Assembly: GCA_002255905.1 (NCBI GenBank)
Contig: NKIN01000001.1
Location: 620,001 to 684,000, forward strand
Length of the DNA: 64,000 nt
DNA from: Burkholderiales bacterium PBB1
Lineage (GTDB): Bacteria > Pseudomonadota > Gammaproteobacteria > Burkholderiales > Burkholderiaceae_C
Direction of reading: 5' to 3'
Position numbers and translations under genes: made by a program. The notes beneath the pieces were generated by a model, which searched no databases, was not told the origin of the DNA, and worked only from the letters and a program-made list of their open reading frames with translations. Positions 5,879 through 46,399 of the stretch are shown piece by piece; position 1 is the first letter of the stretch; each line of letters starts with the position of its first letter.

Positions 5879-5903
5879 TCTCCGATTGCGGTCAGTCTGC
5901 CAG

Positions 5904-6542
5904 ATGGGTTTCAGCGAAAGTCTCGGCCGAGTCAAGCACTCGCTCGGCTTTCGCCTTTTTGTCGTCGGGTTGTTGCTGGCCTTTGAGGGCGGGGTTGCTT
6001 CGTGGATCGTGAATCCGCGAAGCAACCCCACCGCCTATGCTGATGGACAGCGAGTCAATGCCTCGACAGTGAGTTCGGTGCAACCGGCAGACGGCGGCTG
6101 GCAGCAGCTCTCTGCCCCTGAGCAACAAGCGCTGCTTCCCCTGAGGGAGATGTGGCCCACACTGCGTGACGCCCAACAGCAAAAATGGCGCTTGCTTGCG
6201 GCCGGTTTCCAGGGCAAGTCGGCATCGGAACAGCGGAGAGTCCACGCACGGATGGCAGCATGGGCCCGACTGTCACCGCACCAGCGGGCTCAGACCAGAC
6301 TGGCTTTTCTTGAGGGCGCGACGATCTACGACCGCAAGCGGCGCATTGAGCGGTGGAATGCCTACCGGCAGATGCCATCGACCCAGCGGCCGCGAGTTGC
6401 TGCAGCCAACAACCCACGCATCGTGTCGAGAGCCTCCTTGCATGCGGCAAGCGGTGCAACCACGATGCTGATGCCGCAGTTTTTCCCGCTGCCGATCTAC
6501 GGACAGGTGGCTCTGGCTCTGGCTCGTGCGACAGGTCAGTGA
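5904..6542 (+). CDS. DUF3106-containing exported protein
   Basis: This 212-residue protein starts at the ATG at 5904, 25 bases after the Pal-like gene. It opens with a hydrophobic segment (FRLFVVGLLLAFEGGVASWIV, about residues 16-36) that acts as a signal or anchor. The body carries the DUF3106 pattern, with LSAPEQQALLPLREMWPTL, KWRLLAAGFQGKSASEQRR and RARMAAWARLSPHQRAQTR-like repeats of short Trp/Leu/Pro segments. This resembles periplasmic stress-sensor helices. Function is not known. It sits among envelope genes, so a periplasmic role is likely. Confidence 0.7.
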   Translation: MGFSESLGRVKHSLGFRLFVVGLLLAFEGGVASWIVNPRSNPTAYADGQRVNASTVSSVQPADGGWQQLSAPEQQALLPLREMWPTLRDAQQQKWRLLAAGFQGKSASEQRRVHARMAAWARLSPHQRAQTRLAFLEGATIYDRKRRIERWNAYRQMPSTQRPRVAAANNPRIVSRASLHAASGATTMLMPQFFPLPIYGQVALALARATGQ

Positions 6543-6698
6543 TCTGCGCCCCAGATCGACATGGGGCACCGATCTGACGATGCCGCCTCTGCAGCGATCA
6601 CGCCTCCGACGTCGATGCACCTGCAGAAACCGTGAGCCAGCACCTGTCGAGGATCCGACAGATGTCTGGGTGGAGCTTGTGAAGCATCCCGGGAGTGG

Positions 6699-7553
6699 AT
6701 GGCGATGAGATCACGCATTTTTGTGACGGTGGTGGTGTCGATTCTTCTCGTCGAGATCGGTCTCGGCGTATTTGAGTTCGGGCCAGATGCGGATCGAAGC
6801 GCCGCAAAGCGTCTCGTGGCCGCAGCGCCTGCGCCGCCGGTTGCGACGCCCCCGGCAGTCGCCGTGCCACCAGCGGAGGCTTCTTCGCCAGCAGCGCGAC
6901 AGGAAGCCGCTGTTCCGGTACCCAAGGGACCGTCGATCGCTGCCGACGGGGTCGCTGTCGCGCTGACGGAGTTGGTAGGCACCAAGGCCGCTGAGGCATG
7001 GCTACGCTTGGATGACTTTCCGCACCGACTGGTCGCGACTGTCGACAACCTCAGCCGCGAACAGGCGGCAGCATCCCTGTGGCCAGTGGGTCCGACGGCG
7101 GGGCACTTCTCGGTGGTTCAACACGAGGGCCGGCTGGTCATCGATCCTGACAATCAGCTGCGCTACGCGCCATTTGTTCAATGGGTAGAGGGGCTGGACA
7201 GCGCCAAGGTGGTCGCTGTCTATGTGCGGCTTCTGCCGCTGCTGCAACGTACATATGAGGAGCTGGGCTATCCCCTTGGCCTCCACTTCCAGGCGCAGCT
7301 CTTGAAGGTGATCGACAGCCTGCTGGCTGCGCCGGAGGCCGCTGAACTCATCGAGGTGAAGCTGACTGACGTCAAAGGGCCCGTTCCCTCCTTGAGGCCG
7401 TGGGTGCGTTACGAATTTGCGGACGCTGAACTCGAGTCGGCCAGCGCTGGGCAGAAGCTGATGGTGCGCATCGGTGCACCGAATGAAACCCGCCTGAAAG
7501 CCAAGTTGAGGGCGCTGCGCAGCGAGATCGTCAGGCAGTCCAGCGACCAGTGA
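6699..7553 (+). CDS. DUF3014-containing membrane-anchored protein
   Basis: This 284-residue protein has one N-terminal transmembrane helix (IFVTVVVSILLVEIGLGVFEF). An Ala/Pro-rich linker runs from about residue 40 to 80, and the rest is a globular periplasmic domain. Diagnostic DUF3014 segments are the RLDDFPHRLVATVDNLSRE region, the FVQWVEGLDSAKVVAVYVRL helix and YEELGYPLGLHFQAQL. The family is widespread in proteobacteria without an assigned function. A second ATG at 6705 is two codons in and equally possible. Neighbours are other envelope proteins. Confidence 0.72.
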   Translation: MAMRSRIFVTVVVSILLVEIGLGVFEFGPDADRSAAKRLVAAAPAPPVATPPAVAVPPAEASSPAARQEAAVPVPKGPSIAADGVAVALTELVGTKAAEAWLRLDDFPHRLVATVDNLSREQAAASLWPVGPTAGHFSVVQHEGRLVIDPDNQLRYAPFVQWVEGLDSAKVVAVYVRLLPLLQRTYEELGYPLGLHFQAQLLKVIDSLLAAPEAAELIEVKLTDVKGPVPSLRPWVRYEFADAELESASAGQKLMVRIGAPNETRLKAKLRALRSEIVRQSSDQ

Positions 7554-7596
7554 AGCAGGCAGCCTGTTTGCTCTGCAAGACGTTCATTTCCATCGC

Positions 7597-13184: not shown

Positions 13185-15925
13185 CAGGTCTTCGGGCTCT
13201 GCAGGCTGTCAGGGAGTTCGGTCAGATCGATCGCAGGTGGTGTGCCGAGCGGCAAGGTGAAGCTGAAGGTGGCTCCATGGTCCTGACCCTCGGTGCGTGT
13301 CGGCTCGACCCCGATGTGCCCGCGGTGCGCCTCGATGATGGCGCGGCAGATCGCGAGACCCAAGCCCATGCCCGGCGTGGCCGACTCGGTGTGGCCGCGG
13401 GTGAACTTGTCGAAGATGGCGTCCTCCTGGCCGGTGGGAACGCCGGGGCCGTGGTCTTGCACGCAGACACGCACGACGGGGCCATCGGGGAGCACGATGA
13501 TCTCCAGTGGCGAACCCACCGGCGTGTACTTGCCGGCGTTCTCGAGCAGATTGGCCAGCACCCGCTCGATCAGCACCGCATCGCATTCGACCAGCGGCAC
13601 CGCCGGGGCTATGTGCACGCTGATGCGGCGCGACCCCAGCGAGCCCTGGGCGGCCTTGAGGGCGCTGCCGATGATCTCTTCGAGCGAATGCCATTCGACC
13701 CGCAGCCGGATCTCGCCGCTCTGGATGCGCGCCATGTCGAGCAGGTTGGTCACCATGGCCGTCATGCGCTGGGTCTTGTCGGCCATCGAACGCGCGAGCG
13801 CCTGCTGGTCTGCGCTCAGCGCCGGCTGGCTGCCAGCCAGTGTTTCTGCCAGGCCCACCAGCGCTGCCAACGGGGTGCGCAGGTCGTGCGACAGCGCCGA
13901 CAGCAGCGAGTTGCGCAGGCGCTCCGATTCCATCTGCACCGTGGCAGCCTGCGCCACCTCGATGTAGTGCACGCGCTCGAGTGCCATGGCCGTCAAGGCC
14001 GTGAAGGTTTCGAGCTGCTGGCGCTGCTCGGGGATCAGCAGAAATCGCGTGACCTCCGGGCGCACCGCCAGCACCCCACGTGCACGCATCGTGGCCTTCA
14101 GCGGCAGATACAGCCAGGCGCTGCCGGCGAGGGTGTCGGTGCCGAGCCCGGCGGGCAGCAGATGGTCAATCGACCATTGCGCGGTGCCGGTGTCCAGGCC
14201 TTGCTGAGCGGGCTCGCCGGGTGCGGCAGTCGGCGCCTGCAAGCGGTCGTTCGCATCGAGCACGTAGATCGCCACCTGCGCCCTGAACTCGCGGCCGATG
14301 ACCGCGCGCGCGACCTCGATGACCTGCTCGCGGGTGAGCATGTTCGACAGGTCGCGAGCGGCCTCGAACAAGGCCCGCGACCGGGCCTCGCGGTGCGTCG
14401 CCACGCTGGCCTGAAAGCGCAGCCCGGCGGTGAGCTGGCCGGTGACCAGGCCGACGATCAGCATGATCGCGAAGGTCAGCAGGTACTGCGCGTCGGACAC
14501 CGCGAAGGTGCCCCGCGGTGGCACGAAGAAGAAGTCGAACGAGGCCACATTCATGAAGGCCGCCAGCACCGCCGGCCCGCGCCCCAGCCACACGCCGATG
14601 CCCACCACGGCCAGCAGGAACACCATCACGATGTTGGCGAGGTCGAAGTAGGGCACCAGCAGGTGCGTCAGCAGCGTGGTGGCCGCACAGGTGCCGGCTG
14701 CCAGCAGGTAGCGCCGGATCTGCGCACTGCCCTCGGGGGTAGCAAGCTCTGTGGTGGCCTGCGGGCTTGTCCGCTGGCGCGTGGCTTCGGGCTGCCCGAC
14801 CTCGATGCGGTCGATGTCCGGAGCGCGCCGCGCAATCGCCTCGGCCAGTGTGCGCATCGGCCACCCGCGGTGGCGCTGGGCGGTGCCAAGCACCAGCTTC
14901 GACAGGTTGTTGGCCCGGGCATGGGCGACCAGTGCCTGCGCCACGCTCTGCGCGGACAGCACCACGCTGCGCGCCCCCAGTGCCTCGGCCAGCTTGACGG
15001 TTTGCAGAATGCGCTCGCGATGTGCCGGCGCCAGCCGCTGCAGCGCGGGTGTCTCGACATACACCGCATGCCAGCTGACCGCCAGCTGCTGCGCCAGCCG
15101 TGCGGTGCTGCGCACCACGTGTTCAGCCCCCTCGTGCGGCCCGATGCCGCACAGCAGCGCACCTTCGGTCTGCCACACCTGCGTGATGCGGCGGTCGCTG
15201 CGCCAGGCCTGCACATCGTCTTCCACCCGGTCGGCGGTGCGGCGCAGCGCCAGCTCGCGCAGCGCCATCAGGTTGCCCTTGCGGAAGAAGTTCTTCGCCG
15301 CCCGCTCGGCCTGTGCCGGCAGGTACACCTTGCCGGCGGCCAGCCGCTCGATCAGCTCGTCGGCCGGCGTGTCGACCAGCACCACCTCGGCGGCCGAGTC
15401 GAAGAAGGTGTCGGGCAGCGTTTCGTGCACGGCGATGCCGGTGATGCCGCCGACCACGTCGTTCAGGCTTTCGAGGTGCTGCACGTTCAGCGTGCTGTAG
15501 ACATCGATGCCCGCGGCCAGCAGCTCTTCGACGTCCTGCCAGCGCTTGGGATGGCGCGAACCCGGCACGTTGGAGTGCGCGAGTTCGTCGACCAGCAACA
15601 GGGCGGGCCGGCGTGCCAAGGCGCCGTCGAGGTCGAATTCGGCGAGGCGCTTGCCTCGGTACTCGATCTGCGCGGCGGGCAACACCGGCAGGCCTTCGAG
15701 CAGCGCAGCGGTGTGGCTGCGGCCGTGGGTTTCGACCACGCCGGCGACCACGTCGACGCCATCGGCCTTCAGCTGCTGCGCGGCTTCGAGCATGGCGCAG
15801 GTCTTGCCCACGCCGGCAGAGGCGCCGAAGTAGATGCGCAACTTGCCGCGCCCCTCGCGCTGCTGGGCGTCGCGCAGCTGCGCCAGCAGGGCGTCAGGGT
15901 CGGGGCGCTGCGGTTCGGTCGTCAC
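13184..15925 (-). CDS. kdpD: KdpD sensor histidine kinase
   Basis: This 913-residue kinase has the KdpD order. The N-terminal KdpD domain has a Walker A motif, GASAGVGKT (34-42), and the LLVDELAHSN segment. A UspA-like domain comes next (about 255-370), then four closely spaced transmembrane helices (about 400-490), a GAF-like segment and the kinase core. His680 lies in SHDLRTPLAA, with ATPase motifs LLENAGKYTP, VQDHGPGVP and GMGLGLAICR. It senses low potassium or turgor and phosphorylates KdpE. The start codon is GTG at 15925. It lies 49 bases downstream of kdpC in the same operon. Confidence 0.93.
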
Positions 15926-37796: not shown

Positions 37797-37843
37797 CAAT
37801 CTCTCGCATGAATCGCATGACTGCGCTCAAGATGAAGGGGTAG

Positions 37844-37867
37844 AAAAGCGCTCGTCTCGGCGCTTTT
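37844..37867 (+). terminator. Terminator-like hairpin after lpdA
   Basis: AAAAGCGC (37844-37851) and GCGCTTTT (37860-37867) form an 8-bp stem around an 8-base loop, ending in four T. It lies 48 bases after the lpdA stop and before the ThiF gene, so it probably ends the pyruvate dehydrogenase transcript. The stem is short, so read-through is possible. The remaining bases to 37950 should carry the ThiF-cluster promoter, which I cannot define. Confidence 0.6.
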
Positions 37868-37950
37868 GCGTGCTACAAAGACCGTCACACTGAATAAAGT
37901 CGAGCGCCAGCATCGTGGCGTCGGCGTACTTTTTTCGCGAGCGGCTTTGA

Positions 37951-38826
37951 ATGAGCGTCGTTTTTTCATACGAAGAAGCTTTTTCGCGCAACATTGGTTG
38001 GGTGACAGCCCGCGAGCAACTTGCACTCAAATCCAAGCGGGTGGCCATCGCAGGTCTGGGAGGGGTTGGCGGCAGCCATTTGCTGACTTTGGCCCGGCTT
38101 GGCGTAGGTGCCTTCAACATCGCCGATTTCGACGCCTTCGATGTGCCTAACATTAACCGCCAAGCGGGTGCGGTGATGTCCACCTTGGGTGCCCCTAAGG
38201 TTGAGGTGCTGGCCGCAATGGCGCGCGACATCAACCCTGATGTCGATATCCAAGTGTTTCCTCAAGGGGTCGACCGCTCGAACTTGGTTCAGTTTTTGTC
38301 CGGTGTCGATGTGTATGTCGACGGGCTGGACTTCTTCGCCTTCGCGGCAAGGCGACTCACCTTCGCCTCCTGCTCGGATATGGGGGTACCCGCCATCACC
38401 GCCGCCCCGTTGGGCATGGGAACGGCGGTGCTGAATTTTTTGCCCGGGCAGATGAGCTTCGAGGAATACTTCCTCTGGGGTGATCTGCCCGACGACGAAA
38501 AAGCGTTGCGCTTTCTGGTCGGCCTGGCTCCCGCGGGATTGCACCGGGCCTATCTTGTCGATCCGTCCACCGTGGATTTGGTCGAGCGCCGCGGACCATC
38601 CACCATCATGGGTTGTCAGCTCTGCTCGGGTGTCGCGGCAACCGAAGCCTTAAAGATCATGCTTGCGCGCGGCAAGGTACGAGGTGCACCGCATGGCTAT
38701 CAATTCGATGCCTATCGCAATAGGTTCGTGCGCACCTGGCGTCCTGGTGGAAACAAGCACCCGTTGCAACAACTTGCGCTGAAGATAGGGATGCGCCAGC
38801 TCCAAAAAATGAGGTCTGCTCGATGA
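37951..38826 (+). CDS. ThiF/MoeB/E1-like adenylyltransferase
   Basis: The 291-residue protein has the Rossmann ATP-binding motif of E1-like enzymes (VAIAGLGGVGGSHLLTLARLG, with GLGGVGG at 35-41). The ADFDAFDVPNINRQAG segment follows, with the conserved Asp and Asn-Arg-Gln, then KVEVLAAMARDINPDV. The C-terminal half has one CxxC (GCQLCSG) where MoeB/ThiF have two zinc CxxC pairs. Such enzymes adenylate the C-terminal carboxylate of a small ubiquitin-like protein or peptide; no such partner is encoded nearby. The stop overlaps the nitroreductase ATG (ATGA). The same two activities are found joined in Mycobacterium Rv1355c-type proteins. Confidence 0.75.
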   Translation: MSVVFSYEEAFSRNIGWVTAREQLALKSKRVAIAGLGGVGGSHLLTLARLGVGAFNIADFDAFDVPNINRQAGAVMSTLGAPKVEVLAAMARDINPDVDIQVFPQGVDRSNLVQFLSGVDVYVDGLDFFAFAARRLTFASCSDMGVPAITAAPLGMGTAVLNFLPGQMSFEEYFLWGDLPDDEKALRFLVGLAPAGLHRAYLVDPSTVDLVERRGPSTIMGCQLCSGVAATEALKIMLARGKVRGAPHGYQFDAYRNRFVRTWRPGGNKHPLQQLALKIGMRQLQKMRSAR

Positions 38827-39914
38827 CTTCGCCGATGCCCACGGTCCCCGTTGGCGTAATGGCGCAGATCCTCGAACTCGCTCGGTGGGCGCCGAGTGGT
38901 GACAACAGTCAGCCCTGGCGCTTTGAGGTGGTAGATAAGAATCACGTGATCATTCATGGATTCGACACGCGTGAGCATTGCGTCTACGACTTGAAGGGTG
39001 AGCCCAGCCAAATGTCCCTGGGCGCCTTGCTCGAGACCCTGTCTATTGCAGCCAGTGGCCACGGCCTTGAGACGACGGTGCAGCGCCGCCCGGAGATGCC
39101 GGACACTGCGCCGACCTTCGACGTGCGATTCACGCCAAATGCCGAGATCTCCGCCGACCCGCTGATTCCATGTATCACCGCCCGAAGCGTGCATCGCAAA
39201 CCGATGAGCATTCGTCGGCTGACCAGGGACGAGAAGAAGTCGCTCGAGGACTCCGTGGGCTTGGCATATCGCCTCGAATGGATCGAAGGCTTCCGTTCCA
39301 AATGGACGGTCGCGCGCCTGATGTTCGGCAACGCCAAGCTGCGATTGACGCTGCCGGAGGCCTATCGCACTCACCGGGATGTCATCCAGTGGAATGCGCG
39401 TTACAGCGAAAACCGCGTTCCCGATAAAGCCCTCGGTGTGGACCCGCTCACTGTCCGGCTGATGCAGTTCGTGATGCAGAGCTGGAGCCGCGTCGAGTTA
39501 TTCAACCGCTATCTGGCTGGCACGGTGGCACCGCGAATCCAGATGGATTTCGTGCCCAGCCTGGCCTGTGGCGCACATTTCGTGATCAAGGCACAGCGGC
39601 GCCCGACGACCATGGACGATTTCGTTGCTGCAGGTCGCGCGATGCAGCGTTGCTGGCTGACCGCGACGCGACTGGGGTTGTTTCAACAGCCCGAACTGAC
39701 GCCACTGATTTTTTCCAGGTACATCCGAGAAGGCACGACGTTCACGGCCCATTCCGCGTTGACGGCACAGGCGCGCAGGCTCGAAGAGCGAGCACGTGCG
39801 GTGATCGGCGCGGATATCGAGCGAGCTGTTTGGATGGGCCGCATCGGCGCTGGCACTGTGCCCTGGTCACGCTCGCTTCGGCGTCCGCTGCAGCAGTTGA
39901 TGCGGTCGAACTGA
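38823..39914 (+). CDS. Nitroreductase-fold flavoprotein coupled to ThiF
   Basis: The protein has 363 residues. The FMN-binding start of the nitroreductase family is seen as LARWAPSGDNSQPWRFEV (residues 19-36). ARSVHRKPMS resembles the N-terminal R-x-S-x-R-x-(F/Y) pattern, and a C-terminal helix-strand AMQRCWLTATRLGLFQQPEL corresponds to the usual A..N..L.A...GL segment. It is longer than simple nitroreductases (about 200-220 residues) and resembles the nitroreductase half of Rv1355c-like proteins. It is translationally coupled to the ThiF gene, and the glycosyltransferase ATG is five bases after its stop. Substrate unknown; an oxidation or reduction of the ThiF-activated product is an inference. 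Confidence 0.65.
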   Translation: MTSPMPTVPVGVMAQILELARWAPSGDNSQPWRFEVVDKNHVIIHGFDTREHCVYDLKGEPSQMSLGALLETLSIAASGHGLETTVQRRPEMPDTAPTFDVRFTPNAEISADPLIPCITARSVHRKPMSIRRLTRDEKKSLEDSVGLAYRLEWIEGFRSKWTVARLMFGNAKLRLTLPEAYRTHRDVIQWNARYSENRVPDKALGVDPLTVRLMQFVMQSWSRVELFNRYLAGTVAPRIQMDFVPSLACGAHFVIKAQRRPTTMDDFVAAGRAMQRCWLTATRLGLFQQPELTPLIFSRYIREGTTFTAHSALTAQARRLEERARAVIGADIERAVWMGRIGAGTVPWSRSLRRPLQQLMRSN

Positions 39915-39919
39915 CGCCT

Positions 39920-41125
39920 ATGCGGCGTGTTCTGTTCTTCTGCGAAGCCGTCACGCTGGCACATGTTGCTCGCCCTGTCACATTGGCAGCCGCGCTCGAT
40001 TCTTCATGCTACGAGGTTGTGATCGCTTGTCCTGATCGCTCGCGTGCGTTTGCGGGCATGGGACCGTGGCCAATCAAGTCGCTAGACAGCATCAGCAGCG
40101 AGCGCTTCCTCGCCGCGCTCGCATCGGGCCGGCCGGTCTATGACCTGGAAACCTTGCGGCGCTATGTCGCCCGCGATATCGAGCTCATCGATGAGGTTGG
40201 CCCCGACGTCGTGATTGGTGACTTTCGCTTGTCGCTTTCGGTCAGCGCACGTGTCGCGGGGGTCCCGTACATCACGATGACCAATGCCTATTGGAGTCCC
40301 TACTACCCTCGCATTGACTATCCCTTGCCTGTGTTGCCTATGACGAAGCTGCTGCCCCTTCCAGCGGCGCAACGACTGTTCAGGTGGGCCGCGCCGTATG
40401 CGATGCAAGGACATTGCAGGCCAATGAACCGATTGCGTCGTGAGCATGGCTTGCCATCGCTCGGCTCTGACCTGCGGCGTGTCTACACTGACGCAGACCA
40501 CACGCTGTATCTCGACTTTCCCAGCCTCTTTGCGGCGGTCGACCCTCCGAAGAACCATCATTTTCTCGGGCCGGTGCTGTGGTCGCCGCCGACGCCTGAG
40601 CCCCCTTGGTGGACGAACCTGCCGCAAGACCTGCCGTTGGTGTATGTGACCATGGGCAGTTCGGGCCAGGCCGGCATCCTCAAGAGCGTGCTTTCAGCTC
40701 TGGCTGAATTGCCGGTAGTCGTCATGCTCTCTACTGCGGGTGCTGCCATACCGTCTGCGCTACCTACCAATGCCTATGCCGCCGAGTATCTGCCTGGCAT
40801 TGACGCCGCGGCGCGGTCGAACTTGGTCGTGTGCAACGGCGGAAGCCCGACCAGCCAGCAGGCCCTGGCCGCTGGTGTTCCCGTACTCGGTATTGCGAGC
40901 AACATGGATCAGTTCATGAACATGGAAGCCGTCACAGGCGCTGGCGCCGGGCTGCTGCTGCGCGCCGATCGGCTCGACATTCACGCGATCCGAACTGCCT
41001 GTCGGCGCTTGCTCACCGAACCAAGCTTTCGAGACACGGCTCAGAGCTTGTCAGCCTCCACCGATCCGGCCGCAATCCAGGCACGCTTCAACCGAATTGT
41101 GGCCAACGCCTCAAGCGGCCGATAA
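39920..41125 (+). CDS. UDP-glycosyltransferase-like (GT1/MGT type) protein
   Basis: The protein has 401 residues from the ATG at 39920. The longer open frame upstream lies inside the nitroreductase gene. The two-domain GT-B layout is visible. The N-terminal half starts MRRVLFFCEAVTLAHVARPV, where H15 could be the catalytic-base histidine of GT1 enzymes. The C-terminal half has VYVTMGSSGQAG and the donor-binding segment VVCNGGSPTSQQALAAGVPV near residues 302-321. That is the GT1/MurG-like HGG motif with Asn in place of His. It should transfer a sugar to a small acceptor or lipid. Close spacing to the ThiF-nitroreductase pair suggests a shared pathway. Confidence 0.72.
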   Translation: MRRVLFFCEAVTLAHVARPVTLAAALDSSCYEVVIACPDRSRAFAGMGPWPIKSLDSISSERFLAALASGRPVYDLETLRRYVARDIELIDEVGPDVVIGDFRLSLSVSARVAGVPYITMTNAYWSPYYPRIDYPLPVLPMTKLLPLPAAQRLFRWAAPYAMQGHCRPMNRLRREHGLPSLGSDLRRVYTDADHTLYLDFPSLFAAVDPPKNHHFLGPVLWSPPTPEPPWWTNLPQDLPLVYVTMGSSGQAGILKSVLSALAELPVVVMLSTAGAAIPSALPTNAYAAEYLPGIDAAARSNLVVCNGGSPTSQQALAAGVPVLGIASNMDQFMNMEAVTGAGAGLLLRADRLDIHAIRTACRRLLTEPSFRDTAQSLSASTDPAAIQARFNRIVANASSGR

Positions 41126-41204
41126 GGCCGTTGCGACCGAGCCTTTCACTGCCCCTGTCATCCCCCGCATGCAACCTGACCCACCTGCAACAAGAGATTC
41201 CCCC

Positions 41205-43997
41205 ATGCCTATCCAACACCGTCCCAGTTTTCCCGGCCGCCTGTCAGCGGTAGGCGCGTTGTTTCTCATGGCCCTGTTGGCTGCTTGCAGCAAACCGAGC
41301 CCTGAACAGATGCTGGCGTCCGCGAAAACTTACGCCGCCGCGAGGGACTTCAACTCGGCCGTCATCCAGCTGAAAGGCGTTCTGCAGGCCAAGCCCGACG
41401 TGGCCGAAGCTCGATTCCTGCTTGGCAAGACACTCCTGGACATGGGAGACCCTGTGTCTGCCACGGTCGAATTTGACAAGGCGCTGACCCTGAAGTACCC
41501 CGAGGACACTGTCGTTCCGCTACTGGCAAAAAGCTTGCTGCAAAGTGGTGAGGTCAAGAAACTGACGGAGGAATTCGCCAGCCGCAATCTGGCCGACCCA
41601 GCCGCCGCAGCCGCGTTGAAAACTGTCCTCGCGACCGCCTACGCGTCGCTCGGAAATGCCCAGGCCGCTGAGGCGGCATATTCGGCGGCAGTCGCCGCAG
41701 TGCCGGATTTTCCTGGTGCGCTGGTGTTCAAGGCGAAGCAAAAGGCCGGTGCAAAGCAGTTCGACGAGGCCATCGCTCTGGTCGACCGTGCGATCGCCAT
41801 CAAGCCCGACGAAGGCGAGGCCTGGCACTACAAGGGTGAGTTTTTGCTGTACGGCAAAGCCGACTTTCCGGGCGCGACCACGGCGTTCAAAAAAGCCATT
41901 GAGTTGAATGATCGTTACCTGCCCTCGCGCTGGACGCTGATCAACCTGGCACTGGCTCAACACGACCTCAAGTCAGCCTCTGATCAAACCGATGCACTCC
42001 GCAAAATCGTCCCCTCACACCCGTGGGTGACTTACTTCGATGCGCAGCTTGCCTTCCGCAACAAGGATCTGACCAAGGCCCGTGATCTGGTCCAGAAGCT
42101 GCTGAAGAACTCGTCAGGCAGTGCCGAAGTGCTGGAATTGGCCGGTGCGGTGGAACTCAGTGGCGGCTCCCCCGTGAAGGCTGAAAAATACTTGATCCAG
42201 GCGCTGCAGCAGGGGCCGAATCGTATCTTCAGCCGACAGATGCTGGCCCAGCTCTATCTGCGCTCGGGCCAGACGGACAAGGCGGTGTCGGCGATGGAGC
42301 CGGCGCTACGGCAGTCCGATCCCAGCGCTGACACCCTTGCGCTGGCGGCTCAGGCCTATTTGAGAGCAGGCGACCTTGAGAAGGCAAAAACACTGTACGC
42401 CCGGGCTGCGGCCAAGAACCCTAACGATGTGAAAACCAAGGTTGCCCTCGCGGTGACGCAGGGCAAACCGGATACGCAAGCGCAAACGATGGCCGAACTC
42501 CAAGCCATTGCCTCGGCCGATACGAGCGGTACCTACGCGGACCTCGCCGTCTACAGTGCCATGTTCTCGAAAGGAGACTTCGAAGGAGCGCTCAAGGCGA
42601 CCGATGCGATCGAGAAAAAGCAGCCCAAGCTGCCCTTGGCTTTCGACTTGCGCGGCCGTGTCCAGGCGCTACGCAACGATCTCACTGCAGCACGCCAAAG
42701 CTTCGAGACGGCAGTGAAACTCGATCCCTTGTACGCGCCATCGATCCATGGCCTGATCGCTATCGATCTGATTGAAAAGAAGCCGGAGGCCGCGGCCAAG
42801 CGTTTCGATGCCGTGCTGGCGGCCGACCCGAAAAACCTCGCTGCGCAGTTGAGCAATGCGGGCTTGCTGCAGCGGGCGGGTGCGCCGAAGGAAGAGGTTG
42901 CGGCGCGGTTGACCAAGGCGATTGAAACCAACCCGGATGCCTTGGCGCCTCGTTTGGTGCTGATCGAGCACCACTTGAAGAACAACGATCCCAAGCAGGC
43001 GCTGACGGTGGCACAGGCGGGTGAGGGAGCCTTTGGGAACAACCCCGAATTTCTGGATGCGCTGGGTCGGGCGCAGCTGGCGACCGGTGAACCGAATCAG
43101 GCGATTGCCAGCTTCAATCAAATGGCGGTGCTGTTGCCTGATTCGCCGCTGCCGCAGTTGAGACTGGCCGAGTTGTACGTGTCGACCAACAACCTGGATT
43201 CAGCCACCAAGAGTTACCAGCAGGCGCTGAAGATCAAGCCCGATCTACTGGCCGCGCAAAGCGGTCTGGTGTCGATCGCCACCCTTTCCAAGCGGCCGCA
43301 AGAAGCCATTGCCATCGCTCGCACGGTGCAAAAGCAACGGCCCGACAGCCCCGAAGGCTTCATGCTCGAGGCCATGGTCGAAACAACAAACCGCAATTTC
43401 GATGCGGCAACTGGCCTTTATCAGAAGGTGTTGAAACGCTTCCCCTCCTCGATCCCCGCCGTTCGTCTGCATTCGGTGCTGGTCGCTGCAAGCAAGCAGC
43501 GTGAGGCCGATCAACTCGCCGACTCCTGGCTCAAGTCGCAACCCAAAGATGTGCTTTTCCGCAATTACCTGGCGACCATTTTCATGGCTCAGAAAGACTA
43601 TTCGGCAGCGCTTGAACAGTATCAGGCGGTTGTTGCGCTGCAGCCCCAAGATCCCGCCGCTTTGAACAACATGGCATGGAACATGGTCCAACTCAACAAG
43701 CCGGGCGCGGTTGAATTGGCCCAGAAAGCCAATGCCTTGCTGCCGAACAAGCCGGCGCTGATGGACACGTTGGCGTCGGCACTGGCTGCCGACAAAAAGT
43801 TCAAGGAAGCCATCGATATTCAGAAGCGGGCTGTGACATTGGCACCGGAGGACCAAGCGCTGCGGCTGAATCTGGCGCGGCTCTATGTGAGCAACGGCGA
43901 TCGTTCAACGGCCCGATCCGAGCTTGATCGCTTGGAAACGACAAAGCCCAGCCCGCAAATTCAGAAAGATATCAGTGCGCTGCGCAAAGCCTTGTAG
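41205..43997 (+). CDS. prsT: PEP-CTERM system TPR-repeat lipoprotein (PrsT type)
   Basis: This 930-residue lipoprotein has its lipobox LLAAC (lipidated Cys28) after a basic start. It then consists almost entirely of about twenty tetratricopeptide repeats with recurring patterns such as AEARFLLGKTLLDMGD, AWHYKGEFLLYGKAD and PAALNNMAWNMVQLNKPG. Length and composition match PrsT (TIGR02917), a marker of exosortase/PEP-CTERM exopolysaccharide loci. TPR proteins of this kind are thought to scaffold the assembly or export of the polymer in the periplasm. It follows the glycosyltransferase by 79 bases without an obvious promoter. The start ATG at 41205 is the one that places the signal peptide correctly. 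Confidence 0.85.
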   Translation: MPIQHRPSFPGRLSAVGALFLMALLAACSKPSPEQMLASAKTYAAARDFNSAVIQLKGVLQAKPDVAEARFLLGKTLLDMGDPVSATVEFDKALTLKYPEDTVVPLLAKSLLQSGEVKKLTEEFASRNLADPAAAAALKTVLATAYASLGNAQAAEAAYSAAVAAVPDFPGALVFKAKQKAGAKQFDEAIALVDRAIAIKPDEGEAWHYKGEFLLYGKADFPGATTAFKKAIELNDRYLPSRWTLINLALAQHDLKSASDQTDALRKIVPSHPWVTYFDAQLAFRNKDLTKARDLVQKLLKNSSGSAEVLELAGAVELSGGSPVKAEKYLIQALQQGPNRIFSRQMLAQLYLRSGQTDKAVSAMEPALRQSDPSADTLALAAQAYLRAGDLEKAKTLYARAAAKNPNDVKTKVALAVTQGKPDTQAQTMAELQAIASADTSGTYADLAVYSAMFSKGDFEGALKATDAIEKKQPKLPLAFDLRGRVQALRNDLTAARQSFETAVKLDPLYAPSIHGLIAIDLIEKKPEAAAKRFDAVLAADPKNLAAQLSNAGLLQRAGAPKEEVAARLTKAIETNPDALAPRLVLIEHHLKNNDPKQALTVAQAGEGAFGNNPEFLDALGRAQLATGEPNQAIASFNQMAVLLPDSPLPQLRLAELYVSTNNLDSATKSYQQALKIKPDLLAAQSGLVSIATLSKRPQEAIAIARTVQKQRPDSPEGFMLEAMVETTNRNFDAATGLYQKVLKRFPSSIPAVRLHSVLVAASKQREADQLADSWLKSQPKDVLFRNYLATIFMAQKDYSAALEQYQAVVALQPQDPAALNNMAWNMVQLNKPGAVELAQKANALLPNKPALMDTLASALAADKKFKEAIDIQKRAVTLAPEDQALRLNLARLYVSNGDRSTARSELDRLETTKPSPQIQKDISALRKAL

Positions 43998-44010
43998 CAG
44001 TTTGCATACG

Positions 44011-44038
44011 AAAAAGAGGCGCCGAAGCGCCTCTTTTT
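44011..44038. terminator. Bidirectional intrinsic terminator between prsT and the PEP-CTERM gene
   Basis: A perfect 12-bp inverted repeat, AAAAAGAGGCGC / GCGCCTCTTTTT, has a CGAA tetraloop (44023-44026). Flanking A and T runs give a U-tract on both strands. It lies 14 bases after the prsT stop and 20 bases from the stop of the convergent PEP-CTERM gene, so it serves both. Confidence 0.92.
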
Positions 44039-44057
44039 GACTTGCTTGAAGACCTGC

Positions 44058-45044
44058 TCAGGCAGACTTCTTCTTGCGTTGACTTGCTACACCAGCTGCA
44101 GCCAGTGCCAGACCAACCAGTGCGAGAGACGCAGGTTCAGGAACTTGGTTTACGAATGAACCCGCAGCATCACTTTGGAACTGGAAGTCGCAGCTTCTGG
44201 TCCTCGTGCCTGATTCCGTCACACCACCCTGGGTGCAATCAGCGCCGTTGACCTTAGCCCCGTTAACGTAGCTGTAGTTCGGCGTGAAGCCCACCACCGA
44301 GTCGGAGGGCTGGGCAGCATTGAACGGCACAGCCAGATTCGTGGTGTCGTTGTAATTCAAGGTCAGAATCAGTTCAGCAACATTGCCGAGGAAGTAGCTT
44401 GGATCGAGAAAGTCAATTTTCACATTGACCGTGTTGCTGCCATTACCCACATGGCTGACCACGCCGCCGTCCACGTCACCGTTGCCGCCGGGGCCGTTCG
44501 CAAACTGATCCAGACCGGTAACTGGGTACAAACTAGGAAGAAGCCGGGTGAAATCGTTGAAAGTGCCGGTAAGGCTATTGATGGTGCCGCTGAGGATCAA
44601 GGTGCCGTCGCCGTAACCCGTACCGGTAACTTGGTTGCTGTTGTTGGCGGTGTCTGCATAGACCTTGAAATAATTGGCGCCTGACGCCAACTGGAACGCT
44701 GCAGCAGACGTCCCGATACCGGTTGCTGTTTCAAAAAATGACGCTTGGAAGGTGTACTCACGACCCGTCTGTGCAAACAGCGCAGACTGGGGCCCCGATG
44801 CCGTGGTGAAGGTGGCCAGCTTGCCCTGGGCCACCGTCTGCAAGGTCTGGCTGCCATTGACCGGAGGTGTTGAGAGGGCGCCAATCGACAAGGCGTTGTC
44901 AGGGCTCCAATCCAGACCGATGAGGTTGACTTGGCTGCCGGCAGAACCTGAGCCGTCATAACTGAATACCACAGCATTGGCAGAGGTAACCCCCATGCCA
45001 AGCGCTGCAGCCGCTGCTATCGATAACAAAGACTTGTTGAACAT
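44058..45044 (-). CDS. PEP-CTERM sorting domain-containing secreted protein
   Basis: This 328-residue exported protein has a Sec signal peptide MFNKSLLSIAAAAALGMGV ending near ANA. The mature part is low in charge and rich in Ser, Asn, Gly, Thr and Ala, of the beta-rich adhesin-like kind. The C-terminal sorting signal is complete: VPEP at residues 301-304, a hydrophobic helix (ASLALVGLALAAAGVA) and a basic tail SQRKKKSA. Exosortase would cut here. The body is not a family I recognise. AGAGGATCAAC precedes the ATG. A near-consensus sigma-54 promoter lies about 50 bases upstream. Confidence 0.88.
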   Translation of the reverse strand: MFNKSLLSIAAAAALGMGVTSANAVVFSYDGSGSAGSQVNLIGLDWSPDNALSIGALSTPPVNGSQTLQTVAQGKLATFTTASGPQSALFAQTGREYTFQASFFETATGIGTSAAAFQLASGANYFKVYADTANNSNQVTGTGYGDGTLILSGTINSLTGTFNDFTRLLPSLYPVTGLDQFANGPGGNGDVDGGVVSHVGNGSNTVNVKIDFLDPSYFLGNVAELILTLNYNDTTNLAVPFNAAQPSDSVVGFTPNYSYVNGAKVNGADCTQGGVTESGTRTRSCDFQFQSDAAGSFVNQVPEPASLALVGLALAAAGVASQRKKKSA

Positions 45045-45092
45045 GTTGATCCTCTGAAGTTACGCCGTAAGGGACGGCGACGCAGGCTATCA

Positions 45093-45108
45093 AGCATGGG
45101 TTGTGCCA
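45093..45108 (-). promoter_or_regulatory. Sigma-54 (-24/-12) promoter of the PEP-CTERM gene
   Basis: The minus strand reads TGGCACAACCCATGCT from 45108 down to 45093. The -24 element TGGCAC is perfect, the GG-to-GC spacing is the required one, and the -12 element ATGC differs from TTGC by one base. The predicted start near 45082 leaves a leader of about 38 bases before the ATG at 45044. Sigma-54 control through the PrsR enhancer-binding protein is known for PEP-CTERM loci, which supports the call. Confidence 0.75.
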
Positions 45109-45160
45109 GATGACGAAAATCCTTGTAAATCAGATACTTACGCGGAAAACGAGAGGTTTT

Positions 45161-45177
45161 AGCCGGTCAATCCGGCT
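45161..45177 (-). promoter_or_regulatory. AGCCGG-N5-CCGGCT dyad upstream of the sigma-54 promoter
   Basis: A perfect 6-bp dyad with a five-base centre (45161-45166 and 45172-45177) lies about 80-95 bases upstream of the predicted start. That is the normal distance for an enhancer-binding-protein site. It is also between the acyltransferase stop and this promoter and could be a weak terminator, but no T-run follows it on the minus strand. I favour an activator site at low confidence. Confidence 0.35.
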
Positions 45178-45205
45178 GGTTTGTAAAGTTTTTCGACGGT
45201 TTGGC

Positions 45206-45997
45206 TCAGTCTGCTGCGGGCGACTGGGCCGCATGTGCAATCGCCGCATCGCGCGCCTGAAAAGCGCTGTTCACCGACGCTTCGATCACTTCGTAGAGCG
45301 GTTTGATCATCGGCCGAAGCCCGGCCACGACTTTGCTCGAACTCAGCAGCGACGGTACCCGCACGCCACGGTGCTCGATCTGGCCGCCGACGGCATGTAT
45401 GTCGAAACCGATGCGCACAAAGTGGTTTGCCAGCCGGGGCTCGGTAAGCACAAATACATTCTCGATGCCGAGGCGTATCGCCATGGCCGCCGCTCCGAGG
45501 TACAGGCTGACCGGGATAAACGGAAACCGCGTGTTTGGCCCACGCGCGCTGAAGTCGTCGTCTGTGACCGATGTCGCCGCAGTCGCCTCACCTTTACGCT
45601 GCCGGTAGCTATGCGCCACCGCCAGCCGGGACACTTCGCCCAGCGTGTGCCGCGGCATGCGGGCCGGGTCAACGATGCTGCGGTCAAGCACGGCTGCGCA
45701 GCTGACCTCGAACGGTAGCGGGTACTGCGGCGCTTCAGGCCGCGCAGCGATCAAGCGAGTGCAGCCCACCGCTTCGCCAGTTTTACGGCTTCGCAACAGG
45801 CAGTGAACAGAATGGCGGTCGAATTCGTCGGACTCGCGCCCATCCTCTCGCACCGGTTCCCAGCCTAGATCTCGACAGTACACCTCGTGCCGTAAGCGGA
45901 ACACTTGGTCGAGCGTGGCCTCATCGAAAGCCGGTATCAGCTCGAACCATTGCTGGAACTTTTCGCCCAGATTGGAGGTGGGGGTTTCCAAGGTCAC
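45206..45997 (-). CDS. PEP-CTERM/exosortase-associated N-acyl amino acid synthase
   Basis: This 263-residue GNAT-fold acyltransferase has the conserved FRLRHEVYCRDLGWEP entry and the D-E-FDRHSVHCLL segment. GCTRLIAARPEAPQYPLPFE and LGEVSRLAVAHSYRQRKGE follow in the TIGR03694 order. Relatives make long-chain N-acyl amino acids from acyl-ACP and an amino acid such as tyrosine, and published work has tied them to PEP-CTERM/exosortase loci. It is upstream of and co-directional with the PEP-CTERM gene (161 bases between them). A degenerate sigma-54-like site lies about 160 bases upstream of its ATG. Confidence 0.85.
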   Translation of the reverse strand: MTLETPTSNLGEKFQQWFELIPAFDEATLDQVFRLRHEVYCRDLGWEPVREDGRESDEFDRHSVHCLLRSRKTGEAVGCTRLIAARPEAPQYPLPFEVSCAAVLDRSIVDPARMPRHTLGEVSRLAVAHSYRQRKGEATAATSVTDDDFSARGPNTRFPFIPVSLYLGAAAMAIRLGIENVFVLTEPRLANHFVRIGFDIHAVGGQIEHRGVRVPSLLSSSKVVAGLRPMIKPLYEVIEASVNSAFQARDAAIAHAAQSPAAD

Positions 45998-46399
45998 GAG
46001 TTGACTTCAGTAAGGTGGTGGGCTGTCAATCGGTCATGTGACGATTGCGCATGGAGGTGGGTGAATTCGTGTCGTGTGTAGATGTCTGGGCAAATGCACT
46101 TTGCGTTCGATCAGTGTTTGTCGCGTCTACCAGACGCCATCCTTCCAGTGATTCCATGCTTGAGTTGTGCCGGAACTCGACCACTGAAAACAAAAGTTGC
46201 CGAAGCAGAAGGCTTTTTCACAACCATTCTCGGAATGACACAACACGTTTCGACTGTAGCCTGCCCGACCGCGCTGTGCACGTCTTCTGGCGGACAGGCA
46301 AAAGCCTGGTGAGCGCGTTGTCCCGCGTGCGATTCAAGGCTACCCAGTGGTGCATTCAGCAGCCAACACACTCTGGCATGCGCGCACCGGTCAGCTGTG
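45998..46399. other. Gap upstream of the acyltransferase, no supported gene
   Basis: This 402-base gap separates the acyltransferase start from the end of the GIDE gene. ORFs on both strands here look like chance frames and have no domain or good ribosome-binding site. On the minus strand CGGCACAACTCAAGCA (46172 to 46157) has the sigma-54 GG and GC at the right spacing but weak flanks. It could drive the acyltransferase with a long leader. The composition is less GC-rich than that of the surrounding genes. Confidence 0.35.

Follow-up and report, generated by a model that had tools for sequence, protein, structure and literature searches.

Introduction

N-acyl oxazolones are produced in bacteria by small sets of enzymes, whose putative homologues are encoded in the locus described in this work, located in a stretch of 64,000 nucleotides of Burkholderiales bacterium PBB1 (contig NKIN01000001.1, positions 620,001 to 684,000; hereafter the window). 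According to the passages of the literature drawn upon here, TyzA, TyzB (a ThiF protein) and TyzC (a protein of nitroreductase fold) make acyl-tyrazolones, and the order of cyclisation and oxidation by TyzCB is not obligate (PMC10404671). TrzS, a fusion of ThiF and flavin oxidase, carries out an ATP-dependent cyclisation of acyl tryptophan and then an O2-dependent desaturation (PMC12856293), and a similar chemistry is attributed to OxzAB of Pseudoalteromonas rubra by the papers citing it (PMC10404671, PMC12856293). Moreover, sets composed of an N-acyl amino acid synthase (NAS), a ThiF protein and a nitroreductase are a mark of bacteria that produce N-acyl dehydrotyrosines, Massilia kyonggiensis among them; what ThiF does in these sets was described as enigmatic (PMC12479983). 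For Stieleria, whose cluster was noted to contain a PEP-CTERM gene, lactonisation followed by oxidation was put forward in 2020 (PMC7293339).

As for betaproteobacteria, Grigg et al. report that the TyzC subcluster has members in this group, and that more than half with known context adjoin a ThiF gene. In Rubrivivax gelatinosus, the table of an exopolysaccharide cluster lists ThiF-type genes with wza on one side and ABC transporter genes on the other, PrsT genes being close by, and the passages concerning this table do not comment on the role of the ThiF-type gene (PMC3684757). In 2011, Craig et al. (cited in PMC11072679 and PMC7293339) drew attention to an association of exosortase loci with N-acyl amino acid synthases.

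The original prediction on this DNA, made from the sequence alone, proposed that an acyl amino acid is activated by an E1-like enzyme, changed by a flavoprotein and glycosylated, and knew of no described pathway with this set. The reading that our analysis makes on balance probable is that the region is an acquired N-acyl-oxazolone or N-acyl-dehydroamino-acid island, tied to the exosortase (PEP-CTERM) system. That is, judging from homology to Oxz, Tyz and Trz, the core chemistry is likely of a known kind, and the notion of an undescribed pathway has to be abandoned for the three-enzyme core, already described as OxzAB, TyzACB and TrzAS.

Organization of the Locus

The island and its genes are the following (amino acids, aa).

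37797-46010, no strand: whole island, GC content 59.5% versus 65.4% in the remaining window
37951-38826, plus strand: predicted ThiF/E1-like adenylyltransferase-cyclase of the NF006077 (PRK08223) family, 291 aa (NF006077, 454.9 bits, above the cut-off of 266)
38823-39914, plus strand: Acg-like flavin oxidase of the nitroreductase superfamily, predicted desaturase, 363 aa (PF00881, 46.1 bits, cut-off 23.5)
39920-41125, plus strand: GT1-type glycosyltransferase (GT), 401 aa (PF06722, 58 bits, cut-off 31.7)
41205-43997, plus strand: PrsT TPR-repeat lipoprotein, 930 aa (TIGR02917, 712 bits, cut-off 312.2)
44058-45044, minus strand: PEP-CTERM protein, PepA-like (flocculating bacteria), 328 aa (PF07589, 25.0 bits, cut-off 20.7)
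45206-45997, minus strand: N-acyl amino acid synthase-like acyltransferase, TIGR03694, 263 aa, GTG start (249.2 bits, cut-off 111.95)

The ThiF and nitroreductase genes share four bases (ATGA), the GT gene starts 5 bases past the nitroreductase stop and the PrsT gene comes after a gap of 79 bases; the PEP-CTERM and TIGR03694 genes face this run from the opposite strand. Coordinates and profile scores confirm this layout, which had been read from the sequence in the original prediction. The arrangement is not due to chance, as another genome of the genus (G008, loci L061 and L157) has retained it, with a nitroreductase and a ThiF that are 66% and 77% identical, respectively, to those of the window. 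The term PEP-CTERM locus, used in the same prediction, holds for PrsT, the PEP-CTERM gene and the acyltransferase but does not extend to an exosortase: none was found near the locus, and the nearer of the two in the genome lies about 145 kb away (C16:513064). Consequently, the term is used here for those three genes only.

The ThiF-Like Enzyme and the Flavoprotein

The ThiF protein of the window also matches PF00899 (137.7 bits). Its closest solved structure by sequence is TcdA (4D79, E 1.7e-15), an E1-like enzyme responsible for a ring closure in tRNA (PMC4405576), and its ThiF domain aligns with ThiF and MoeB as well. Sixteen aligned ThiF sequences, that of the window included, have G35, G37, G38, G40, G41, D61, N69, R70, K83, D124 and D127 invariant. 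The predicted adenylation residues among them (N69, R70, K83, D124 and D127) are intact, and D127 would be the counterpart of TrzS D217, given its position in the motif. On its own the protein scores 64.8 bits with NF005901, the Rv1355c family of TrzS, under the full-length cut-off of 476.

The best NCBIfam match of the nitroreductase is this same Rv1355c/TrzS family NF005901 (110.6 bits, under the cut-off of 476), followed by the Acg/Rv3131 family NF047509 (109.0 bits, under the cut-off of 199). Its AlphaFold2 (AF2) model, with a predicted local distance difference test (pLDDT) score of 94.5, finds Acg (2YMV) as best PDB match, with E 1.2e-14 and template modelling (TM) scores of 0.69/0.76, and Acg 2YMV is likewise reported as the nearest structure of TrzS (PMC12856293). 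The protein may work like the TrzS family, although we do not file it as a member. R174 and Q289 are nearest by profile position to R540 and Q651 of TrzS, a mapping that would be a guess and is not claimed here.

The pairing of an E1-like protein with a dehydrogenase of flavin mononucleotide (FMN) nitroreductase fold also recalls, in the sources drawn upon, the TOMM clusters, that is, ribosomal-peptide azole pathways with a ThiF-like cyclodehydratase partner and a SagB-like dehydrogenase. Such a ribosomal-peptide origin is exceedingly improbable for this locus and was put aside: no YcaO protein or known precursor is present among the 7 window proteins scanned (short open reading frames, ORFs, were not searched), the nitroreductase is Acg-like, and the conserved neighbours are acyl amino acid synthases.

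Under the preferred reading, an oxazolone pathway, the TIGR03694 acyltransferase would link an amino acid, probably an aromatic one, to a fatty acyl chain. The ThiF-like enzyme would then adenylate the carboxylate, so that the acyl amide oxygen closes the ring of a 5(4H)-oxazolone (azlactone), and the Acg-like flavoprotein would desaturate the alpha-beta bond with O2, giving an acyl-oxazolone that may stay cyclic or hydrolyse to an N-acyl dehydroamino acid. As a fourth step, the GT would attach a sugar, most simply at the phenol hydroxyl if the amino acid is tyrosine. The first three steps have been demonstrated for the Oxz, Tyz and Trz homologues and are transferred to the window enzymes by analogy; the fourth, together with a destination at the cell surface or in the exopolysaccharide, may be proposed. 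Activation by the E1-like enzyme and change by the flavoprotein, as anticipated in the original prediction, are therefore supported by homologues that give a cyclised, desaturated product (TyzACB, PMC10404671; TrzAS, PMC12856293). The order then proposed, activation before oxidation, agrees with what is shown for TrzS and is not obligate for TyzCB.

Association with Exosortase Genomes

The distribution of these families was followed in 399 genomes of the order, each at least 90% complete. NF006077 exceeds its cut-off in 62 of them and exosortase (PF09721) is counted in 151, a tally that leaves out, of the 156 genomes matched, the 5 with the poorest E values (1.8e-4 and worse) and includes a ThiF genome with a weak match (G143, E 2.2e-7). 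Exosortase is present in 61 of the 62 ThiF genomes versus 90 of the 337 others (23.5 expected; Fisher p 7e-29, kinship ignored), and at least 17 of the 62 ThiF genes lie less than 25 kb from an exosortase gene. This pairing suggests that the product in many exosortase genomes is cyclised, oxidised and sometimes glycosylated, rather than a plain N-acyl amino acid. In other words, a vague association between synthase and exosortase becomes a testable pathway with known assays. Acid or methanol work-up, by which oxazolones are opened (PMC12856293), may have hidden such compounds.

The E1 and nitroreductase folds are widespread, and the alignment of the ThiF domain with TcdA, ThiF and MoeB would also fit a housekeeping E1 of MoeB/TcdA type lying by accident beside a detoxifying nitroreductase. 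This is very improbable and was rejected: the pairing with exosortase of a family found in just 62 genomes, the ThiF-nitroreductase fusions found in several loci, and other ThiF-domain genes of the window genome that could serve such tasks (on contig C14, 261 bits, and on C8, 127 bits, the latter match interrupted by one stop) all speak against it.

At the level of loci, 63 were compared (all 62 genomes plus G008, up to 20 kb around ThiF, with profiles built from these loci). A nitroreductase is present in 49, adjacent and co-directional or fused in 40; a FeeM-type synthase in 49, directly upstream in 35; TIGR03694 in 9, and one or the other acyltransferase in 55. PrsT is found in 24 and a LolCE-like permease in 22. 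A second set consists of 80 named loci, the best 80 of 493 confirmed and mostly betaproteobacterial by title, from Massilia, Duganella, Janthinobacterium, Rugamonas, Nitrosospira, Thauera, Azohydromonas and Azoarcus, among others. Here a nitroreductase is present in 66, FeeM in 37, TIGR03694 in 14, either acyltransferase in 49 and PrsT in 28; several Massilia loci have the gene order PrsT-FeeM-ThiF-nitroreductase, followed in some by the GT gene (L198, L203 and L217).

Two further features were observed in these loci. A GAF-domain protein, possibly a sensor, is encoded directly 3' of the nitroreductase in L052, L057, L058 and L072. In addition, LolCE-like permeases, a LolD-like ATPase, a LolA-like carrier and a DUF1302 barrel occur, as a whole or partial set, in L044, L053, L171, L172, L194, L228, L234 and others, and this set, found in many ThiF loci, looks like a lipid export route.

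The Candidate Acyltransferase Partner

The TIGR03694 acyltransferase of the cluster is a distant relative of FeeM (PF21926, 31.6 bits, cut-off 27, over profile positions 1-95 of 158), and a profile-profile comparison between the FeeM group and TIGR03694 gave no significant match. N-acyl-homoserine lactone (AHL) synthases are the top matches of its AF2 model (pLDDT 86.3; E 9e-11), ahead of FeeM (2G0B, E 3e-7); FeeM and an AHL synthase are also reported as the closest structures of TyzA (PMC10404671).

In the order, TIGR03694 exceeds its cut-off in 45 genomes, all 45 with exosortase, and occurs together with ThiF in 18 (7.0 expected, p 2e-5, kinship ignored). FeeM, called present at 120 bits or more with PF21926, a threshold of our own, is found in 56 of the 62 ThiF genomes versus 14 of 78 genomes scanned among the 90 that have exosortase but lack ThiF (p 7e-19, kinship ignored). 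Across the order, ThiF is usually accompanied by a FeeM-type protein (PF21926) rather than by TIGR03694. The latter is found in 5 of the 6 ThiF genomes without FeeM (G062, G114, G162, G292 and G299, not G277) versus 13 of the 56 with it (p 0.006), and seems to stand in where FeeM is missing; in this genus it travels with the ThiF-nitroreductase-GT trio. These roles, usual partner and stand-in, were assigned because TIGR03694 is independent of ThiF within exosortase genomes (18 of 61 with ThiF versus 27 of 90 without), and for the same reason TIGR03694 was rejected as an order-wide conserved partner. The synthase partner of the original prediction thus stands in the genus, where TIGR03694 accompanies the trio, but not across the order. 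As a separate observation, L063, L064, L071, L086, L089 and L187 contain two FeeM-type genes per ThiF locus, and the first four of these loci showed no nitroreductase in reach.

These numbers raise the possibility, which we consider rather unlikely, that ThiF and the nitroreductase of the window act on N-acyl amino acids supplied by a FeeM-type gene elsewhere in the genome (contig C17), while the product of TIGR03694 would be something else, such as an unmodified N-acyl amino acid or a signal of AHL type. The frequency of FeeM in ThiF genomes, its position directly upstream of ThiF in more than half of the 63 loci, the presence of such a gene in the window genome and the rank of AHL synthases above FeeM with the TIGR03694 model are all in its favour. 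Against it, FeeM is found in 10 of 15 genomes of the genus regardless of the trio, whereas TIGR03694 occurs only in the 2 with the trio, a short distance from it; moreover, in G006, G012 and G013 another ThiF has its own FeeM-type gene beside it, and TIGR03694 is present in most ThiF genomes devoid of FeeM. Around the C17 gene itself (L102, L106), no other genes of the module were found in the surrounding 20 kb.

The Glycosyltransferase

A reverse search with the GT subfamily retrieved 20 of the 399 genomes, each scoring at least 235 bits, with the next best at 119. Of these, 17 carry the NF006077 ThiF, within about 10 kb in 15 cases, and 3 lack it. Together with the 5 bases that separate the GT gene from the nitroreductase in the window, these counts are consistent with a GT that would glycosylate the acyl amino acid. 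It is nevertheless quite possible, if somewhat short of an even chance, that the GT belongs to another branch, of exopolysaccharide or glycolipid, and never acts on the acyl amino acid, so that the three-enzyme oxazolone core alone forms one pathway. The GT is found in just 16 of the 63 ThiF loci and 30 of the 80 named loci, polysaccharide genes such as wza and wzc occur in many loci, and the 3 GT genomes without this ThiF family point in the same direction, as does the absence of the word glycosyl from the text covered of those oxazolone and stieleriacine papers that were checked for it.

Several observations weigh against the proposed island pathway. The scores of the nitroreductase hardly differ between the TrzS family and the Acg/Rv3131 family, and members of the latter are stated to form no oxazolones (PMC10404671). 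The model of the TIGR03694 protein resembles AHL synthases more than FeeM, TIGR03694 is distributed independently of ThiF as described above, and the solitary FeeM-type gene at C17:112423-112872 (166 bits) could supply the substrate in trans. Furthermore, among the 63 ThiF loci no nitroreductase was found in 14 and no acyltransferase in reach in 8, 4 of them on stretches shorter than 19 kb. Neither FeeM nor TIGR03694 is in reach in 31 of the 80 named loci (14 titled Janthinobacterium or Duganella, some on short contigs), of which 28 carry a nitroreductase and 19 a GT; therefore, the trio can stand apart from the synthase at the level of the locus. The original prediction tied the trio to PEP-CTERM or acyltransferase neighbours: the exosortase pairing and the acyltransferases of most of the 63 loci uphold this tie, while these 31 named loci, above all the 19 with a GT, do not comply. 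The 19 loci, with ThiF and GT and no acyltransferase in reach, and the near-level family scores slightly lower our confidence in the oxazolone island.

A Seemingly Exchangeable Site in the Genus

The GC content of the island is below that of all 112 sliding stretches of equal length in the window, the lowest among the 79 that do not overlap it being 62.6%, and GC at third codon positions is 0.63-0.74 in its genes versus 0.82-0.86 in the 9 other genes computed. The region looks like an acquired island. In the genus, sampled with 15 genomes, 8 of them less than 90% complete, a strong nitroreductase orthologue is present in 2, the window genome (G000) and G008, and TIGR03694 exceeds its cut-off in these same 2 only, close beside the trio in both. 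The FeeM-type gene mentioned above for 10 of the 15 was called at more than 140 bits with PF21926.

Downstream of lpd, G006 and G013 have PrsT and a PEP-CTERM gene together with a FeeM-type gene and another ThiF (about 51% identical); in G012 these four genes lie on a contig that lacks lpd. In G014, a FeeM-type gene and PrsT are enclosed by lpd and, at the far end, the same GIDE-like and LemA genes, and no ThiF was found in this cassette; in G005, a FeeM-type gene comes after lpd. These FeeM-type genes of genus-mates score 147-153 bits with PF21926 (149 bits in L147), and 56-58 bits by BLAST against a cluster devoid of this type. As the content downstream of lpd differs between species of the genus, the site looks like a slot for exchangeable acyl-amino-acid/PEP-CTERM cassettes.

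The cassettes of G014 (L148:8461-10596) and G005 (L150:5082-7289) also contain, besides the FeeM-type gene, an AMP-binding ligase and a FAD-binding-domain protein, respectively, which suggests other tailoring sets for acyl amino acids. In L147, a single frame of 553 codons (5897-7555) joins a FeeM domain (149 bits) to a weak PilZ match (23.1 bits, cut-off 22.5), so that in that species N-acyl amino acid synthesis may respond to cyclic di-GMP. ORFs 13315-14265, 14267-15478 and 17396-18319 of L147 and 6728-7876 of L150 had no match in Pfam.

Regulatory Sites and a Possible Surface Role

Three further features lie around the PEP-CTERM gene.

44011-44038 (stem-loop 44016-44033), no strand: hairpin, probable shared terminator of the facing operons, read from the sequence
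45093-45108, minus strand: candidate sigma-54 -24/-12-like site 5' of the PEP-CTERM gene, exact match of a relaxed pattern
45125-45141, minus strand: GTAA-N8-TTTAC palindrome, possible PrsR-type box, pattern match

The hairpin, a strong one between PrsT and the PEP-CTERM gene, is flanked by five A and five T and is missing from the pattern-scan list of terminators, which is at chance level; a sigma-70 promoter scan of the island gave no match. The candidate sigma-54 site is the one place in the window where the relaxed pattern matches exactly, yet 1.28 matches are expected window-wide, and its case rests on its position, 48 nt ahead of the PEP-CTERM start codon. The palindrome is the sole match in the window, with 0.01 expected for a pattern picked after viewing the sequence. 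It ends in the TTTACA of motif 1 of PMC1569441, to which it was matched by this end only. According to Haft et al., a motif ending in TTTACA and a sigma-54 site are found 5' of PEP-CTERM genes with a spacer of 32-92 nt (PMC1569441); the spacer here is about 15 nt, below that range.

While PrsT and the PEP-CTERM motif both exceed curated cut-offs (TIGR02917, PF07589), the PEP-CTERM protein scores 76.1 bits with floc_PepA (NF033554), slightly below the cut-off of 80. In Aquincola, pepA adjoins prsT and is sigma-54-dependent, and prsT is required for floc formation (PMC9850573). When an N-acyl amino acid synthase gene associated with exosortase was disrupted in the methanotroph LW13, growth in a gradient and the polysaccharide band were both impaired, and each recovered upon complementation; three genes, this one included, were tested and behaved alike (PMC11072679). 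By analogy, this result fits a surface role of the product without demonstrating one, and a tie to the exopolysaccharide or to protein sorting may be envisaged.

A bolder possibility is that exosortase bacteria of this group make a glycosylated, oxidised acyl-amino-acid lipid derived from an oxazolone with dedicated enzymes and, in related loci, a dedicated exporter (LolCDE-like, LolA-like, DUF1302), and that the oxazolone, being electrophilic, or its glycoside is a surface lipid that attaches to or modifies sorted PEP-CTERM proteins or exopolysaccharide. We regard this as a speculation of low probability, and it would not be universal, since 90 of the 151 exosortase genomes lack this ThiF.

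Comparison with Known Systems

In the passages of the papers considered here, each of the known systems resembles the island in part. TrzAS (Rv1356c/Rv1355c), which makes N-acyl tryptazolone (PMC12856293), shares with it the best NCBIfam family of the nitroreductase, by a small margin, and the same nearest structure; the window differs by its separate genes, its TIGR03694 acyltransferase, the added GT and the exosortase context. TyzACB likewise has separate acyltransferase, ThiF and nitroreductase genes, with the acyltransferase on the opposite strand, but is actinobacterial, and the words exosortase, PEP-CTERM and glycosyl do not occur in the text covered of that paper (PMC10404671). OxzAB of P. 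rubra (de Rond et al. 2021), as described by others, operates ThiF-nitroreductase chemistry on acyl tyrosine or phenylalanine, with the difference that OxzB is fused. We know of no GT associated with OxzAB.

The sets for kyonggic acid (Massilia), thalassotalic acid and stieleriacine (PMC12479983, PMC7293339) are likened to the window by description, each combining NAS, ThiF and nitroreductase, and these compounds would belong to the same type of pathway. In Thalassotalea and M. kyonggiensis the genes are separated by gaps of less than 10 bp or overlap, as in the window, and Massilia loci of our sample carry a ThiF 66-70% identical to that of the window. The Stieleria maiorica cluster contains a PEP-CTERM gene, as does the window, but also methyltransferases, and the products reported for these sets are open N-acyl dehydrotyrosines. 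The PEP-CTERM/EpsH system with PrsK, PrsR and PrsT shares with the window PrsT, a PEP-CTERM protein and, as candidates, promoter motifs; the window differs in having no exosortase nearby, and the text covered of the paper on that system does not contain the words ThiF, nitroreductase or acyltransferase (PMC1569441). The passages covered of the open-licence literature state no genome-level link of this ThiF family to exosortase, nor of the GT to an oxazolone pathway. In comparison with all these systems, the features that make the island a variant are the TIGR03694 protein as acyltransferase, the conserved GT, the exosortase context and the exchangeable site.

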